DNA from: Candidatus Poribacteria bacterium
GTDB taxonomy: Bacteria; Poribacteria; WGA-4E; WGA-3G
Assembly (NCBI GenBank): GCA_028821605.1
Contig: JAPPFM010000060.1
Coordinates: 1-35,328, forward strand
Direction of reading: 5' to 3'
DNA length: 35,328 nt
Below the pieces are notes generated by a model. That model was not told the DNA's origin. It searched no databases and saw only the letters and a list, made by a program, of their open reading frames with translations. Shown here one piece after another: positions 15,339 to 22,629 of the stretch. Made by a program: the position numbers and the translations under genes. Positions within the stretch are counted from its first letter, which is position 1, and each line of letters begins with the position of its first letter.

Positions 15339-15722
15339 GTCGAACTCACGTTAAATTGCATACTTGATTGGATGCAAACTGCGGACCTCCTTCATAGTAG
15401 ACTTTTAGAGAAGTTTGATACCATTGTCCTTGAAACATTGAACCTTGATGGCATGAAACGGCTTTGGGGTCGTAAAGTCTCCGATCTTGGGTTCTACCAG
15501 CTCGTTGAGATATTGAAGTATAAGTGCAGTAAACATAAGCGTCTCCTCATTCAAATCGGTCAGTGGACGGCTACAACGAAACCGTGTAGCGATTGTGGAA
15601 ACCACAACGAAACTCTAACACTCTCTGATAGGCAGTGGACATGTTCCGAATGTGGCTCTCACCACGATCGAGACATCAACGCTGCGATAAACATTTTGCG
15701 GGCAGGGATAGCCACAACATAA
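15339..15722 (+). pseudogene. tnpB: IS200/IS605-type TnpB (OrfB), C-terminal remnant
   Basis: The frame is open from 15339, with the first ATG at 15372. It keeps only the C-terminal ~116 of about 400 residues of TnpB, the RNA-guided nuclease of IS605-like elements. FDTIVLETLNLDGM holds the RuvC-II Glu, CSDCG and CSECG form the intact zinc finger, and HDRDINAAINI is RuvC-III. The N-terminal recognition lobe and RuvC-I Asp are absent, and no left IS end or tnpA was found, so the element is 5'-deleted and cannot cut DNA. Its right end survives to about 15851. Confidence 0.87.
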
Positions 15723-16419: not shown

Positions 16420-18825
16420 TCACTCGGAAGTGTCAGATGACGGGGCCGCTTCGGTATCCTGCTGGGATGGCGTGCTTTTTGAACAACGAAATCCGAGCCA
16501 ACTGTTTGTGTTGGTAGGTGTATCATCGCCGCGACTTGCCGCATGTGCAGGTCCAGGCGTATTCCAAGAACCGCCGCGCGACACGCGCTCTGTTTGAACG
16601 CTCGTGAAGTTCTCCATCAACGCCTCAATGTCGGGAACATCAGCGATCGGATTTTTCTTTGGAGAATCTTTATAAAAGTTCTTGTCAAACTGGTCCAAGC
16701 AGTGTTCCCATACGTTCCCACCCATGTCATGCAAGCCGTACCCATTCGGTAAATAACTGCCGACAGGCGAGGTCTTTCGTCCATAATACCCGTAGTTTGC
16801 TTTACCTGGATCCCGAGAATCTCCCCATACATAGCGTTCACCTACTATGCCACCGCGTGCCGCTTTTTCCCATTCCGCCTCCGTGGGAAGCCGCTTGCCT
16901 TTCCACTTTGCGTACGCCATCGCTGCGTACCAACTCACATAGACGACAGGGTGATTGGCTTTTCCGTCAGGGTAGTCGTTCCCATCCCAAAGTTGGAGAT
17001 AGTTACCGTTATGGTATTCGCTGGGAATATTTTCTTTGCTCCACTCTGGATTGGCATCAACGAACGCCTTGAATTGAGCATTTGTTACCTCATAAGGATC
17101 AATATAGAACGCGTCAAGATAGACAGTGTGTATAGGCGTCGCGTACATGCATTCCTTGCTACCCATCTGAAACTCGCCTGCAGGAATTTTCACCATTTCA
17201 GTCGCAGCTTTTTCCAATTCCTGTGCTGATATAGTGCCGTGACCTAAACATTGCATCGCTCGCGTAAAGTCTATTGCTGCTGCTTCATGTTGTCCAAGTC
17301 TCTCTTTCGTTTTCCCACGACTCTCATAGGCTTCGGTGAAATCAGATTTGTATTCTATGGCTGTATTAAAGTTTTCTATTGCGTTGTTATACTCACCAAG
17401 CACCTTTTTTGTAACACCGCGAGTGTAATAGGCGAAAGCGTTATCTGGTTTTAGTTGAAGTGCTTTATCAGTGTCGGCGATCGCTGCGTAATAGTGTTTC
17501 TGTGCTTCGGCGGTTTTTCGTTGTTCCATTTTTAGTTGTCCGAGAAGGTACTTCGTCCATCCGCGCCCATTGTAATTTGAACTATCGTTCGGATCTAACT
17601 CAATGGCTTTGGTATAGTCCTCTGTCGCTGCTTGACACTGTTTTTGTGCCTTGCTGAATTCTCCTTGTTTCATGTTCAATTGTCCAAGAAGGTGCTTCAC
17701 CTGTCCGCGCCCGTTATAATTCGTGTTATCGTCTGAATCTAAGTTGATGGCTGTGGTATAATCCTCTATGGCTGCTTGATACTGTTTTTGTGCTTCTGTT
17801 GTGTTTCCTTGCTTGGCTTCATATTTACCATAGAGGGACCGCGCATACCCGCGCTCGTAGTAATTTTCATCATCTTCAGAATCTAATTCGATGGCTGTGG
17901 TATGGTTCTTTATCGCTGCTTGATGCTGTCTCCGAGCTTTAGCGATGTTCCTCTCGTACTTGCCTATAGCTTCAGCGTAGTGGGATATCATGTACCCGCG
18001 CACCCTATAGGTATAAGCAAATTCTGGATCCAACTCAACGGATTTATTGAGTTCAAATATTGCCCCTCTATCGTCATTGTCAAAAAATTTGTGTTGTCCT
18101 CGAGCGTAATAGGTATAGGCACGTATACGTTTTTGCTTATACCACTTCGTCAACGGTTCAATTTGGTCGGATTGAGAGAGCAGTGTTTTAAGCGCGTCTG
18201 AAGGGACAGCGTAACTGTAGAAATCACTCACGCGGGAACTGATGCCGATAACTTCGCCTCTATCGTTTAGGATAGGACCGCCGCTATTCCCTTTGACAGT
18301 GTCTGCTGTTGTTTGTATCCATATATCTCTATATCGGCTGTTCCATACGATTCCTTCCGTTAGTTTGTATTCTTCACCGCCGGGATAACCTATGGCGTAA
18401 ACAGTCTCACCTTTCGTAACGGTGCCGCTATTCCCGAGAGGGAGCGGCACACCTTCGCCTGCGATTTTTAAAATGACGAGGTCGTTTTCTATATCAAATG
18501 CGGCGACTCCTTCAACCGTCCAGATTGTTTGATTGTCGCTGAGTTTTGCGAAGATAACACCGGGACTTGAAACAACGTGCATGTTCGTCACAATCTTATC
18601 AGGCTCCACAAAAAAACCACTCCCTGCCCCGATGCTCCACCGATTTATACTTTTGGGTAAACTACCGCTTGTAATACGGACTACAGACGCTTTTCCTTTC
18701 TCGGCTGCGGTGTCTGCCGTCAGCGTTGGTAGTTTTTCCGAAAGGTTTTGCTGGGGTGTCCGCGCCCCTAAAAGGAAAATCACTAAAGCGAAAAGACAGA
18801 ATAAACATTTTTTGTTATATTTCAT
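16420..18825 (-). CDS. Trypsin-like protease - TPR - formylglycine-generating-enzyme (SUMF1) domain fusion
   Basis: 801 residues. An N-terminal signal or membrane segment spans residues 7-20. Residues ~40-215 are a DegP/HtrA-like serine protease with triad H83 (TNMHVV), D115 (DIENDLVIL) and S181 (GNSGGP). Residues ~235-535 hold about seven TPR units, several nearly identical (EDYTTAINLDSDDNTNYNGR and similar), with unusual lysine/gln-rich inserts between helices. Residues ~544-785 are an FGE-sulfatase (SUMF1) domain: MVKIPAGEFQMGS, YEVTNAQFKAFV, RLPTEAEWEKAARGG, GLHDMGGNVWEH, RVSRGGSW and GFRCSK. The tail is Ser/Thr-rich. No PDZ domain is present. SUMF1-like domains in such proteins are often binding modules and not true FGEs. 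The role is probably envelope stress or signalling (inference). Confidence 0.88.
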   Translation of the reverse strand: MKYNKKCLFCLFALVIFLLGARTPQQNLSEKLPTLTADTAAEKGKASVVRITSGSLPKSINRWSIGAGSGFFVEPDKIVTNMHVVSSPGVIFAKLSDNQTIWTVEGVAAFDIENDLVILKIAGEGVPLPLGNSGTVTKGETVYAIGYPGGEEYKLTEGIVWNSRYRDIWIQTTADTVKGNSGGPILNDRGEVIGISSRVSDFYSYAVPSDALKTLLSQSDQIEPLTKWYKQKRIRAYTYYARGQHKFFDNDDRGAIFELNKSVELDPEFAYTYRVRGYMISHYAEAIGKYERNIAKARRQHQAAIKNHTTAIELDSEDDENYYERGYARSLYGKYEAKQGNTTEAQKQYQAAIEDYTTAINLDSDDNTNYNGRGQVKHLLGQLNMKQGEFSKAQKQCQAATEDYTKAIELDPNDSSNYNGRGWTKYLLGQLKMEQRKTAEAQKHYYAAIADTDKALQLKPDNAFAYYTRGVTKKVLGEYNNAIENFNTAIEYKSDFTEAYESRGKTKERLGQHEAAAIDFTRAMQCLGHGTISAQELEKAATEMVKIPAGEFQMGSKECMYATPIHTVYLDAFYIDPYEVTNAQFKAFVDANPEWSKENIPSEYHNGNYLQLWDGNDYPDGKANHPVVYVSWYAAMAYAKWKGKRLPTEAEWEKAARGGIVGERYVWGDSRDPGKANYGYYGRKTSPVGSYLPNGYGLHDMGGNVWEHCLDQFDKNFYKDSPKKNPIADVPDIEALMENFTSVQTERVSRGGSWNTPGPAHAASRGDDTPTNTNSWLGFRCSKSTPSQQDTEAAPSSDTSE

Positions 18826-19014: not shown

Positions 19015-19043
19015 TTGACATCCCCCGTGGAATATGGTATTAT
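19015..19043 (+). promoter_or_regulatory. Strong sigma70-type promoter of the ileS leader
   Basis: TTGACA (19015-19020), a 17-nt spacer and TATTAT (19038-19043). The start is expected near 19050, giving a ~430-nt leader before ileS, which contains a leader peptide and a terminator. Confidence 0.8.
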
Positions 19044-19186
19044 AATTAGGAAGTACAGGTTCTAAAGCAAGTTTTCGCTAAGTCTGGCGAGGCTTGCGTA
19101 GCATTTACAACGACATCACACGCCGTTTAAACCATATAATGGACAGGAAATCGCTTACCACACTGACATCGCAAGATAAGGAATTT

Positions 19187-19288
19187 GTGCGCTACAACAC
19201 CCCAAATCAAGACTGCCTTCGTGCTGTCACGGGTTTGCGCGCCATATCCATTATTATTATTGCTATTCGTCGTGCTGTGGTGGGTTAA
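19187..19288 (+). CDS. Isoleucine-rich leader peptide for attenuation of ileS
   Basis: 33 codons from GTG (19187), preceded by AAGGA at 4 nt spacing. An in-frame ATG at 19139 and a TTG at 19094 lack a ribosome binding site. Codons at 19244, 19250, 19253, 19256, 19259 and 19265 are Ile (peptide AISIIIIAI). The stop is TAA at 19286. The size and composition resemble the E. coli leader peptides IlvL (32 residues) and IvbL. The last codons before the stop (GTG GTG GGT) can pair with the left arm of the terminator at 19319. A ribosome stalled for lack of Ile-tRNA would leave that segment free, giving antitermination. This role is inferred from layout; the peptide itself probably has no other function. 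Confidence 0.7.
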   Translation: MRYNTPNQDCLRAVTGLRAISIIIIAIRRAVVG

Positions 19289-19362
19289 TCACGAACAGAT
19301 AAGAAATTTCTATTACAACGCCCATCACTGAGCAGACGATTTCAGTGAGGGTGTTTTTTTTT
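19277..19362 (+). promoter_or_regulatory. Transcription attenuator: mutually exclusive antiterminator and terminator
   Basis: GTGGTGGGT (19277-19285) can pair with GCCCATCAC (19320-19328) over nine positions including two G-U pairs. The same GCCCATCAC is most of the left arm of the intrinsic terminator at 19319-19362, so the two structures exclude each other. The first segment is the end of the leader reading frame and would be covered by a ribosome that reaches the stop codon. Confidence 0.65.
19319..19362 (+). terminator. Intrinsic terminator (attenuator) upstream of ileS
   Basis: CGCCC-A-TCACTGA (19319-19331) pairs with TCAGTGAGGGTG (19342-19353), 12 bp with one bulged A and one G-U pair, a 10-nt loop, then nine consecutive T. 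It lies 31 nt after the leader peptide stop and about 120 nt before the ileS start, so ileS needs read-through or a second promoter. Confidence 0.9.
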
Positions 19363-19371
19363 AAGAGTTTT

Positions 19372-19403
19372 CAGTTATCGGTTATCGGTTTTCAGTTAAA
19401 GAG
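19372..19403 (+). repeat. Heptamer-array repeat, copy E
   Basis: CAGTTAT, CGGTTAT, CGGTTTT and CAGTTAA in direct succession, then AGAG. It lies between the attenuator terminator and ileS. Confidence 0.85.
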
Positions 19404-19482: not shown

Positions 19483-22400
19483 ATGTTTGGAGAAGTATCA
19501 TCTCAATTCACGTTTGCTGAAAAGGAAAAACAGATATTGGAGTTCTGGCGTGAAAATGACATCTTTCAGAAGAGTATGGAGATGTATAAAGACGCACCGC
19601 CGTTTGTTTTTCTGGAGGGACCGCCGTTTGCGAATGCGCCTCCTGGTGTGCATCACGTCCTTGCACGCGTCATGAAAGATGCCGTCTGTCGCTACAAAAC
19701 TATGACGGGGCATTACGTCCATCGTAAGGCGGGCTGGGATACGCACGGACTTCCGGTTGAATATCAGGTTGAGAAACAACTCAATATTACAAACAAAGCG
19801 GAACTGGAAGCCTACGGCGTTCAGAACTTTATCGAAAAGTGTAAGGAAAACGTCTTCCAATACGAGCAGGATTGGCGGCAGATGACGGAACGCATCGGAT
19901 TCTGGGTCAACTTAGATGATGCCTATATCACGTTGTCCAACGATTACATTGAAAGTGTCTGGTGGGTCCTCCGGCAAGCGTGGGAAAAGGAACTGCTCTA
20001 TCAAGGACATAAGGTACAACCGTATTGCTATCGGTGCGGTACAACCTTAGCAAGCCACGAAGTCGCGCTCGGTTACCAAGAGGTTGCCGATCCGTCTATC
20101 TTTGTCCGTTTCCGACTGAAACACAAAGAGAATGCTTACCTGCTCGTCTGGACGACGACTCCGTGGACCTTACCTTCTAATGTCGCTGTCGCTGTTGGTG
20201 AGGATTACGATTACGTTGCCGTTGAGGAACAGAACGGGCAGCACCTCATCCTCGCAAAGGAATGCATACCGAGCTTATTCGGCGATGAATCTCCGCAGGT
20301 TGTCGAAAACTATAACGGGAGCGACCTCCAAGCGTGGGAATACGAACCCTTGTTTGATAGCGGGCAGCATCCGGAAAAATCACACTACATCGTCACTGGT
20401 GATTTTGTAACGACGACAGAGGGAAGCGGTTTGGTTCACATCGCTCCCGCCTTCGGACAAGATGATTACGAGATTGGGCAAAAATACAACCTACCGCTCG
20501 TGCAGTTGGTGGGTCCTGATGGCAAATTTGTTTCAGCGGTTAAAGAGTCGTGGGCAGGCGAATACGTCAAGGAGGCCGATCCGCAAATCATCGAAAACTT
20601 GGACGAGCGTGGGCTGTTGTTCAAGGCGTCCGAATATACGCACCAATATCCGTTCTGTTGGCGGTGTGATACTCCGTTGCTCTATTACGCACGCGAATCG
20701 TGGTTTATCCGGACGACGGCTATCCGAGAACAGATGCACCAGAATAATCAGCAAATCAACTGGTACCCGGAGCATATTAAAAACGGACGCTTCGGCAATT
20801 GGTTGGAAAATAATATTGACTGGGGATTGAGCCGTGAACGTTATTGGGGAACACCCTTACCCATCTGGGTATGTGACGACTGCGGGCATCAGCATTGTGT
20901 CGGTAGTATCGCCGAATTGAAAGAACTCGGTCCCGATGTGCCGGATGATATTGAACTGCACCGTCCATACGTAGACGATATTGCTCTCGCGTGCGGCGAA
21001 TGCAGCGGCACGATGCATCGTGTGGAAGACGTAATTGATTGCTGGTTTGACTCTGGTTGTGCGCACACGGCGCAGTGGCACTATCCCTTTGAAAACAAGG
21101 AGATGTTAGAGCAGGCGTATCCGGCAGATTTCATCTCTGAAGCTATTGATCAAACCCGCGGTTGGTTCTATAGCCTCTTGGCAACCGGCACACTTCTCTA
21201 TGATAAGCCAGCTTACAAAAACTGCCTTTGCCTTGAACTCATTATGGGACCCGACGGTCAAAAGATGAGTAAGAGCCGGGGAAACACGGTGGATCCGTGG
21301 ACAATTCTCAACAAGCAAGGTGCAGATGCGATGCGCTGGTATATGTTCACCGCAACCACACCGTGGACACCACGCGCTTTCACACTTGACGGCATTGACG
21401 AGGCGTTGAAAAAGTTCATGGGGACTCTCCAGAACGTCTATAGCTTCTTTGTTATGTATGCCAACTTAGAGCAGATTGATGTCTTGCCAGATGCACCACC
21501 TGTCTCGGAACGTTCCACAGTGGACAAATGGATCCTGTCGCGTCTCCACACCCTCATTGAAAATGTGCGCGATGAGATGGAGAATTACCATCTCACGAAT
21601 GCCCCGCGTGCCATCGAGGCGTTTGTGGACGACCTCAGCAACTGGTACGTTCGTCGTTCCCGCGATCGTTTCTGGGGCGCGGAAGCGGGACCCGACAAAC
21701 ATGCTGCTTATGCCACGCTTTATGAGGTACTGGTAACCGTTGCGAAACTCTCGGCGCCTTTCGTTCCATTTTTGGCGGATGAACTCTACCGAAATTTGGT
21801 GTGTTCGCTGGATGCCAAGGCACCTCTGAGTGTTCATCTTGCGGAATATCCGGTTGCAGATGCTGCTCTCAAAGATGTTCAGTTGGAAACCGATATGGAT
21901 TTCACACGCGATGTAATCAGTATGGGACACGCGGCACGCAACCGTTCCGGCATCAAGACGCGCCAACCCCTTGCGGAGCTTACGCTTGGTGGACTTTCCG
22001 AGGCAGAGAAAGCAACCGTTGAGCGTTTAGCGGAACTCGTCCACGATGAACTCAACGTCAAAGGGGTTGCCTTTACAGAAGCGTTGGACGCTTTCGCACA
22101 GGTGACGCTCAAACCCAACTTCAAGGTATTGGGACCCAAGTACGGTAAGGGCGTGCAAGCCATCGCTAAAACACTCGCTGCTGGAGATGCAATAGCACTG
22201 AAGGCGGAGTTGGAAGCTGCTGGCAGCTTACAGGTTGAGGCATCGGGAGAGACTTATACGCTTGAGTCGTCTGACCTTGAAGTCCAGACGCAGAGTCGAG
22301 AGGGATTCTTTGTAGAGATGGATGCAAAGAAATTCGTTGCCTTGTCAACGGAATTGACGCACGAATTGACGCTTGAAGGCTTGGCGCGCGAGTTCGTCAA

Positions 22401-22629
22401 TAAGATTCAAAATATGCGGAAAGAGGCTGATTTTAACGTCTCCGATCGGATCAAACTCAGTCTTGACACGACCTCCCCACTTTTAGATGAGGCGTTTCAG
22501 GCGCATCAAGACTACATCCTCCGTGAGACACTCACGACAACGGTTGTAGACACACCTGGTGAGAATGCCTTTACCCTCGCACAGAAACTCAACGGAGAAC
22601 CCGCAACCTTGAGCGTTGAGCAGGTTTAG
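19483..22629 (+). CDS. ileS: Isoleucyl-tRNA synthetase, type 2 (eukaryote-like), with altered HIGH motif
   Basis: 1048 residues from the ATG at 19483 (MFGEVSSQF), chosen because GAGGGA lies 7 nt upstream and family members begin MFxEV; the ATG at 19468 would add five residues and has only a poorly spaced AGGA. It charges tRNA-Ile with isoleucine in the cytoplasm. The class I signature reads GVHH at residues 55-58 (19645-19656) in place of HxGH; KMSKS is intact at 594-598 (21262-21276). The editing domain (CP1, WTTTPWTLPSN and beyond) and anticodon-binding domain (NWYVRRSRDRFW) are present. The C-terminus lacks the zinc finger of type 1 enzymes and ends in an IleRS2-like domain. It is controlled by the upstream leader peptide and attenuator. 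No second ileS is in the window. Confidence 0.96.
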   Translation: MFGEVSSQFTFAEKEKQILEFWRENDIFQKSMEMYKDAPPFVFLEGPPFANAPPGVHHVLARVMKDAVCRYKTMTGHYVHRKAGWDTHGLPVEYQVEKQLNITNKAELEAYGVQNFIEKCKENVFQYEQDWRQMTERIGFWVNLDDAYITLSNDYIESVWWVLRQAWEKELLYQGHKVQPYCYRCGTTLASHEVALGYQEVADPSIFVRFRLKHKENAYLLVWTTTPWTLPSNVAVAVGEDYDYVAVEEQNGQHLILAKECIPSLFGDESPQVVENYNGSDLQAWEYEPLFDSGQHPEKSHYIVTGDFVTTTEGSGLVHIAPAFGQDDYEIGQKYNLPLVQLVGPDGKFVSAVKESWAGEYVKEADPQIIENLDERGLLFKASEYTHQYPFCWRCDTPLLYYARESWFIRTTAIREQMHQNNQQINWYPEHIKNGRFGNWLENNIDWGLSRERYWGTPLPIWVCDDCGHQHCVGSIAELKELGPDVPDDIELHRPYVDDIALACGECSGTMHRVEDVIDCWFDSGCAHTAQWHYPFENKEMLEQAYPADFISEAIDQTRGWFYSLLATGTLLYDKPAYKNCLCLELIMGPDGQKMSKSRGNTVDPWTILNKQGADAMRWYMFTATTPWTPRAFTLDGIDEALKKFMGTLQNVYSFFVMYANLEQIDVLPDAPPVSERSTVDKWILSRLHTLIENVRDEMENYHLTNAPRAIEAFVDDLSNWYVRRSRDRFWGAEAGPDKHAAYATLYEVLVTVAKLSAPFVPFLADELYRNLVCSLDAKAPLSVHLAEYPVADAALKDVQLETDMDFTRDVISMGHAARNRSGIKTRQPLAELTLGGLSEAEKATVERLAELVHDELNVKGVAFTEALDAFAQVTLKPNFKVLGPKYGKGVQAIAKTLAAGDAIALKAELEAAGSLQVEASGETYTLESSDLEVQTQSREGFFVEMDAKKFVALSTELTHELTLEGLAREFVNKIQNMRKEADFNVSDRIKLSLDTTSPLLDEAFQAHQDYILRETLTTTVVDTPGENAFTLAQKLNGEPATLSVEQV

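Follow-up and report, generated by a model that had tools for sequence, protein, structure and literature searches.

Evidence for a leader-peptide transcription attenuator with a run of isoleucine codons at ileS in Candidatus Poribacteria

The isoleucyl-tRNA synthetase gene ileS of a Candidatus Poribacteria MAG is very probably controlled by ribosome-mediated transcription attenuation in response to charged tRNA-Ile, as judged from sequence comparison and modelled RNA folding. The evidence consists of the anatomy of the element, its conservation, its covariation and the agreement between codon run and regulated gene across several such elements, and the strongest support comes from related leaders of other amino-acid genes, which carry matching codon runs. 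Poribacteria are an uncultured phylum of mostly sponge-associated bacteria. We analyzed a contig of 35,328 nucleotides (the window) together with a phylum genome set of 85 genomes. A comparison of ileS upstream regions, proposed with an earlier sequence-only reading of this DNA, showed that region 2, region 3 and the terminator are kept together with the Ile run: upstream DNA was readable at 74 Poribacterial ileS loci, and 70 of these have the full layout, in eight families of the phylum (f1, f2, f3, f4, f5, f6, f7, and f10). The features of the window are listed in Table 1.

Table 1. Features of the predicted ileS attenuator, in positions of the window
Feature	Positions	Strand	Remarks
Sigma-70-type promoter, TTGACA-17-TATTAT	19015..19043	+	TTGACA 19015-19020, TATTAT 19038-19043; 11/12 matches
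Leader peptide ORF, 49 codons, MDRKSLTT...AISIIIIAIRRAVVG, stop	19139..19288	+	ATG start (likelier); GTG 19187 is the in-frame alternative
Candidate region 1, GCTTACCACA	19153..19162	+	Complementary to region 2; from the minimum-energy fold
Regulatory codon run ATA TCC ATT ATT ATT ATT GCT ATT, six Ile codons	19244..19267	+	Conserved
Region 2, antiterminator left arm, TGTGGTGGGT	19276..19285	+	Overlaps the last leader codons
Region 3, terminator left arm	19318..19332	+	GCCCATCAC (19320-19328) pairs with region 2
Region 4, terminator right arm	19341..19354	+	
T-run of the intrinsic terminator, T9	19354..19362	+	
ileS, isoleucyl-tRNA synthetase	19483..22629	+	Likely start ATG 19483; in-frame ATG 19468 not conserved

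The sequence-only reading had proposed a TTGACA-17-TATTAT promoter, Ile codons at 19244, 19250, 19253, 19256, 19259 and 19265, an intrinsic terminator at 19319-19362 and ileS as the gene downstream, and all of these were found in place. The promoter pattern TTGACN-15/19-TANNNT occurs 5' of 63 of 69 related leaders, with about 2 expected from shuffles, and ileS was identified by a TIGR00392 score of 965 bits against a cut-off of 621. ATG 19483 is the likely start of the gene, because nearly all same-genus relatives share the protein start MF.EVS.QFTF there and few have ATG 19468. For the leader itself, the earlier claim of a 33-codon frame from GTG 19187 to TAA 19286-19288 stood as to the frame and gave way as to the start: comparison with relatives makes ATG 19139 the more likely one. 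We prefer the resulting 49-codon leader because almost every member of two genera has the equivalent ATG (MD.KSLTT or MFYQSLTT; the exceptions are L008 and L009, with an ATG a few codons later, and L005, with GTG) and the GTG position is variable, being CTG, TTG or ATG in several same-genus relatives and no start in the sister genus. GTG 19187, preceded by AAGGA, is a possible alternative start.

At the local Ile frequency, a single peptide would have 6 or more Ile among 17 codons with a probability of about 2e-4, and the run is found again in nearly all relatives. At least 4 Ile lie within the 17 codons before region 2 in 59 of the 70 ileS leaders. These leaders contain 235 ATT, 62 ATA and 20 ATC codons; since all three Ile codons are used, the enrichment does not merely reflect AT-richness. 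The leader frame stays open among relatives, with indels of whole codons only. Within the genus, the run too varies by whole codons only, and its Ile codons are replaced by other Ile codons or, rarely, by Met (L022 and L025). At one locus (L036) the Ile run lies in a frame without a start.

The 3' end of the leader is constrained differently from the codons before it. Codons just 5' of GTGGTGGG change their amino acid freely (CGT to CAC or TAT, GCT to ACT or GGT), and GTGGTGGG is invariant among same-genus relatives even at third codon positions; this third-position invariance beside changing codons points to a constraint on the RNA. The finding bears on the proposal that the frame is not a codon-sensing leader but codes for a functional micropeptide or a sequence-specific arrest peptide, with a conserved ...AIRRAVVG end. 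Family f1 does have a near-invariant C-terminal AVVG, but the region 2 RNA accounts for this conserved end, and other families read the same RNA in different frames and end in DGG, VVG or MVG. Moreover, dN/dS is about 0.7 to 0.9 over the upstream leader codons, and beside the run Arg, Ala and Ile are replaced by His, Tyr, Thr, Gly or Met. A functional peptide reading of the conserved end was thus rejected, the RNA being what is kept, and an arrest peptide or micropeptide is a most improbable account of the element.

At the RNA level, GTGGTGGGT (19277-19285) at the end of the frame is predicted to pair with GCCCATCAC (19320-19328) in the left arm of the terminator, as the sequence-only reading had suggested, with an energy of -12.7 kcal/mol. 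The terminator hairpin (19318-19354, followed by T9) has an energy of -19.4 kcal/mol and a z score of -4.4, and 0 of 200 shuffles were as good. Folding with region 2 free or occupied, which had been put forward as a check, gave the two mutually exclusive states that the reading predicts: the 2:3 pairing formed in nearly all sequences when region 2 was left free and region 4 was still absent, and the 3:4 pairing formed in all families when region 2 was masked. In full-length equilibrium folds, the terminator 3:4 nearly always beat 2:3; antitermination would therefore have to be kinetic, as it also is in other attenuators.

When naked RNA was folded up to region 3, region 2 often paired with GCTTACCACA near the leader start. 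The minimum-energy fold of the window sequence contains a long hairpin (19153-19285) in which 19153-19162 pairs with 19276-19285; a 1:2 hairpin, which the sequence-only reading could not place, thus now has a predicted position. The complement to region 2 has a shuffle p of 0.01 for the window sequence. In all f1g1 and f1g20 representatives tested it lies at +14 from the leader start; its place is +7 in f4 and +11 to +14 in f6. Most of these matches exceed shuffles, and none was found near the leader start in f2. About 10 of 35 same-genus relatives have one mismatch in region 1. The 1:2 pairing is predicted here and in most f1 leaders and is weaker or absent in f2 and f5.

An alignment of 33 same-genus upstream regions showed conservation of the promoter, the leader, GTGGTGGG, CGCCCATCACTGA and the terminator. 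Covariation, another check named earlier, was counted in an alignment of 25 sequences and was seen across families. For the 2:3 pairing, 94% of cells were paired, with 3 pairs doubly changed and 13 double-change cells, including G-C to A-U, and 36 to 68% paired in the sliding control; several antiterminator pairs never vary, which limits this evidence. For 3:4, 90% of cells were paired and 5 pairs were doubly changed, and sliding the partners dropped pairing to 28 to 68% for 2:3 and 3:4 together. The sequences of regions 2, 3 and 4 change in concert: besides GATGGTGGGC / GCCCATCATC / GATGATGGGC, f10 has CAATGGTGGG / CCCATCATTG / CAATGATGGG, f7 has GGTGGTGGGC / GCCCATCACC / GGTGATGGGC, and L145 and L147 have GTGGTGGGT / ACCCATCAC as regions 2 and 3.

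Loci with an altered layout bear on whether the terminator merely shields ileS from upstream transcription, with the gene's own promoter downstream of 19362. The distance between terminator and ATG varies widely and the spacer is often repeat-filled, as such shielding would allow. However, in one relative (L020) only about 15 nt separate the end of the terminator T-run from the ileS ATG, which leaves no room for a downstream promoter, so that ileS must be transcribed through the terminator. A promoter found only downstream of the terminator had been named beforehand as evidence against attenuation, and this locus leaves no space for one. Moreover, the promoter is conserved 5' of the leader, and at two loci that have lost leader and terminator (L047 in G044, on one contig, and L148 in G063) the same promoter type stands directly 5' of ileS. 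A shield with a separate promoter is accordingly highly improbable. Elsewhere, L049 (G038) has the terminator only, and the leader of L031 (G001) lies on another contig (L209).

Retention of the terminator with loss of the Ile codons was the other observation held to count against attenuation. Ile-poor leaders were seen in the early-branching families f5 and f6, where the RNA core is kept with few Ile codons (L038, L043, L154, and L159), and most leaders keep the run. The f6 leaders are aromatic-rich (FLFWLSYFYAL and RFWPFFYAS at L038 and L043). In f5 and f6, either Ile sensing was lost, or single codons suffice, or something else is sensed.

Taken together, the attenuator would work as follows. 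RNA polymerase would start near 19015, and a ribosome would at once translate the nascent leader. With ample Ile-tRNA the ribosome would reach the stop codon at 19286 and cover region 2, whereupon 3:4 would pair and transcription would end at 19354-19362. With scarce Ile-tRNA it would stall at the Ile codons (19244-19267), 10 to 30 nt 5' of region 2, and the free region 2 would pair with region 3 ahead of the synthesis of region 4, allowing read-through into ileS. In an untranslated leader, region 2 would pair with region 1, which should again favor the terminator. We infer stalling, read-through, the kinetic nature of antitermination and the part of the 1:2 pairing as the default state. The earlier proposal that low charged tRNA-Ile stalls the ribosome, frees the antiterminator and raises IleRS is supported by conservation, covariation, the L020 locus and the codon swaps described below.

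A different possibility is that a ligand other than the ribosome controls the terminator, be it tRNA-Ile at a T-box, another riboswitch ligand or IleRS itself, with the small frame incidental. Many bacterial ileS genes have T-boxes, and the Rfam T-box model (RF00230) matched two outgroup ileS loci and, in the window's own genome, the region 5' of an ilvB-like gene (L317, G000:C59 near 219073; also L311). By contrast, neither the window nor any of the Poribacterial ileS leaders searched gave an Rfam T-box match, and this absence is a real difference, because the same model matches the outgroup ileS loci and the ilvB-like gene. Nor did any Rfam amino-acid leader family match at the gathering threshold, 5S rRNA being the only match in the window, and no Ile-rich stretches were found 5' of the outgroup ileS genes. 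Furthermore, the frame stays open among relatives with whole-codon indels only, and in the sister elements the codon run follows the amino acid of the gene downstream. We thus consider a ligand-bound element very unlikely. A leader peptide 5' of ilvB, suggested by the frame search, was ruled out, that element being the T-box. The own genome carries both T-box and leader-peptide control.

Attenuators resembling the ileS element were found at other amino-acid genes. A covariance model of the segment from region 2 to the terminator, built from the ileS leaders, was run on the phylum, and besides ileS its matches had tyrS, DAHP synthase, leuS, cimA, metG or argD as the next gene (names confirmed by NCBIfam for examples). 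Example leaders read PYFYYTYQYVYSLL before tyrS (L202), YFFYLYLFLLYL before DAHP synthase (L194), LSALALRLRLLGLLRLK before leuS (L199), VIAIIIIIRIAAP before the citramalate synthase gene cimA (L204) and AIIMIFMMVEL before metG (L220); the argD leader (L227, FIRVRRSRSG) is a single case that failed the frame rule and was read by eye. With frames chosen regardless of amino acid, the cognate residue was the most enriched one in 6 of 6 scored groups: Ile at ileS (4.7x) and cimA (4.1x), Tyr at tyrS (5.5x) and DAHP synthase (4.7-7.8x), Leu at leuS (3.9x) and Met at metG (9.4x, a single leader). Thus, apart from the ileS leaders of f5 and f6, the leader codons at ileS, tyrS, DAHP synthase, leuS, metG and cimA correspond to the regulated gene's amino acid.

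Leaders with such codons plus a terminator were recorded at many loci: Tyr/Phe-rich ones before DAHP synthases of two types (L194, L197, L200, L203, L206, L207, L211, L212, L195, L196, L225, L228, and L242-L253, with L247 in the own genome), Tyr-rich ones before tyrS (L198, L202, L223, L195, and L196) and Leu-rich ones before leuS (L199, L213, L214, L217, L219, and L224), as well as Met codons before metG (L220 and L271), Ile before cimA (L204, L205, and L222) and Arg before the argD-like gene (L227). In the own genus, VFVFYLYLYLYLYGNDRW-type leaders precede another DAHP synthase, the G000 version being GVFGLYLYVYFYFYGNKRW; it was a terminator-plus-leader scan that found these, not the covariance model, and the sequences of their pairing segments are different. 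Separate from the covariance-model set is a trp leader, NHWHWWGS, with a terminator in the own genome (L306, G000:C59 near 397143; also L304, L305, and L307), followed by a small gene and then trpE. The own genome thereby holds Ile, Tyr and Trp versions. The scan found no attenuator at own-genus tyrS (except in G011), leuS or metG, nor at pheS. The weakest model matches (E above ~1e-3) include chance matches (L226, L229, and L230), and L221 (E 3e-4) also looks like one. A second match of the ileS-leader model in the own genome (L191, G000:C5:13972-14076), together with L192 and L193, precedes a protein of 717-732 aa without an NCBIfam match and has a leader with Cys codons (NCLC...MC).

On balance, we lean toward the view that one core (GATGGTGGGC, GCCCATCATC and terminator) was copied before many amino-acid genes and re-coded by codon swap (Ile, Tyr, Leu, Met, and Arg). 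The sister cores may either descend by copying from one ancestor or have been invented repeatedly around a favored terminator. If copying is the right view, a leader-peptide family would have the place here that T-boxes have in Firmicutes, in genomes that have kept T-boxes as well.

The mechanism is classical; what is new is the gene (ileS), the phylum and the way in which a similar core is reused with other codons. The element resembles the attenuators of E. coli pheST (pheM), trpL, hisL, ilvL and ivbL in its promoter, its short leader with a cognate codon run, its alternative 2:3 and 3:4 pairings and its intrinsic terminator, and it shares with pheST an aminoacyl-tRNA synthetase target. It differs from these proteobacterial systems in its target, ileS, in its phylum, in lacking a sequence match to an Rfam leader family and in the placement of region 1, which lies at the leader start, about 100 nt 5' of the control codons. 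Leader-peptide attenuation of pheST is known in gamma-proteobacteria. T-boxes, which control ileS by a terminator in many bacteria, also sense tRNA-Ile charging, yet they bind the tRNA directly, need no translation and were not found at the Poribacterial ileS loci searched. Transcriptional T-boxes have also been described for ileS.

Outside the Proteobacteria, classical attenuators have been predicted before the synthetase genes leuS and trpS of Streptomyces in a study that reported translational T-boxes for ileS (PMC1262725); those are isolated cases, whereas in Poribacteria several genes have a similar core, with the codons changed. In Bacillus, His leader peptides at hisS and hisZ provide a leader-peptide attenuator that replaces a T-box at a synthetase gene, earlier leader-peptide systems having been shown, according to that study, only in Proteobacteria and Actinobacteria (PMC2965389); amino acid, gene and phylum are all different here. 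We found no paper on a leader-peptide attenuator at ileS in the open-access literature, and none relevant on attenuators or leader peptides in Poribacteria. The element would thus add ileS, and an uncultured, mostly sponge-associated phylum, to the range of classical leader-peptide attenuation. The sister elements suggest a phylum-wide set of attenuators that have an RNA core in common and differ in the codon run, which is swapped to suit the gene. Such a set is a natural experiment for asking how RNA sensors acquire new specificities and why leader peptides or T-boxes are used among lineages or among the genes of one genome.

The surroundings of the element provided further observations. The distance from leader stop to ileS ATG ranges from 88 to 698 nt among relatives, the spacer often being repeat-filled. 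Because the spacer between terminator and ileS differs so greatly among relatives, sequence comparison suggests that repeats insert there frequently. In the window, short CAGTTATCGGTTATCGGTTTTCAGTTA-type repeats lie at 19370-19400. The divergent neighbor of ileS (16420-18825, minus strand) encodes a protein with trypsin-like, TPR and FGE-sulfatase domains, and a short ORF at 15372-15722 that matches a Cas12f1-like TNB domain (PF07282) is probably a TnpB remnant.
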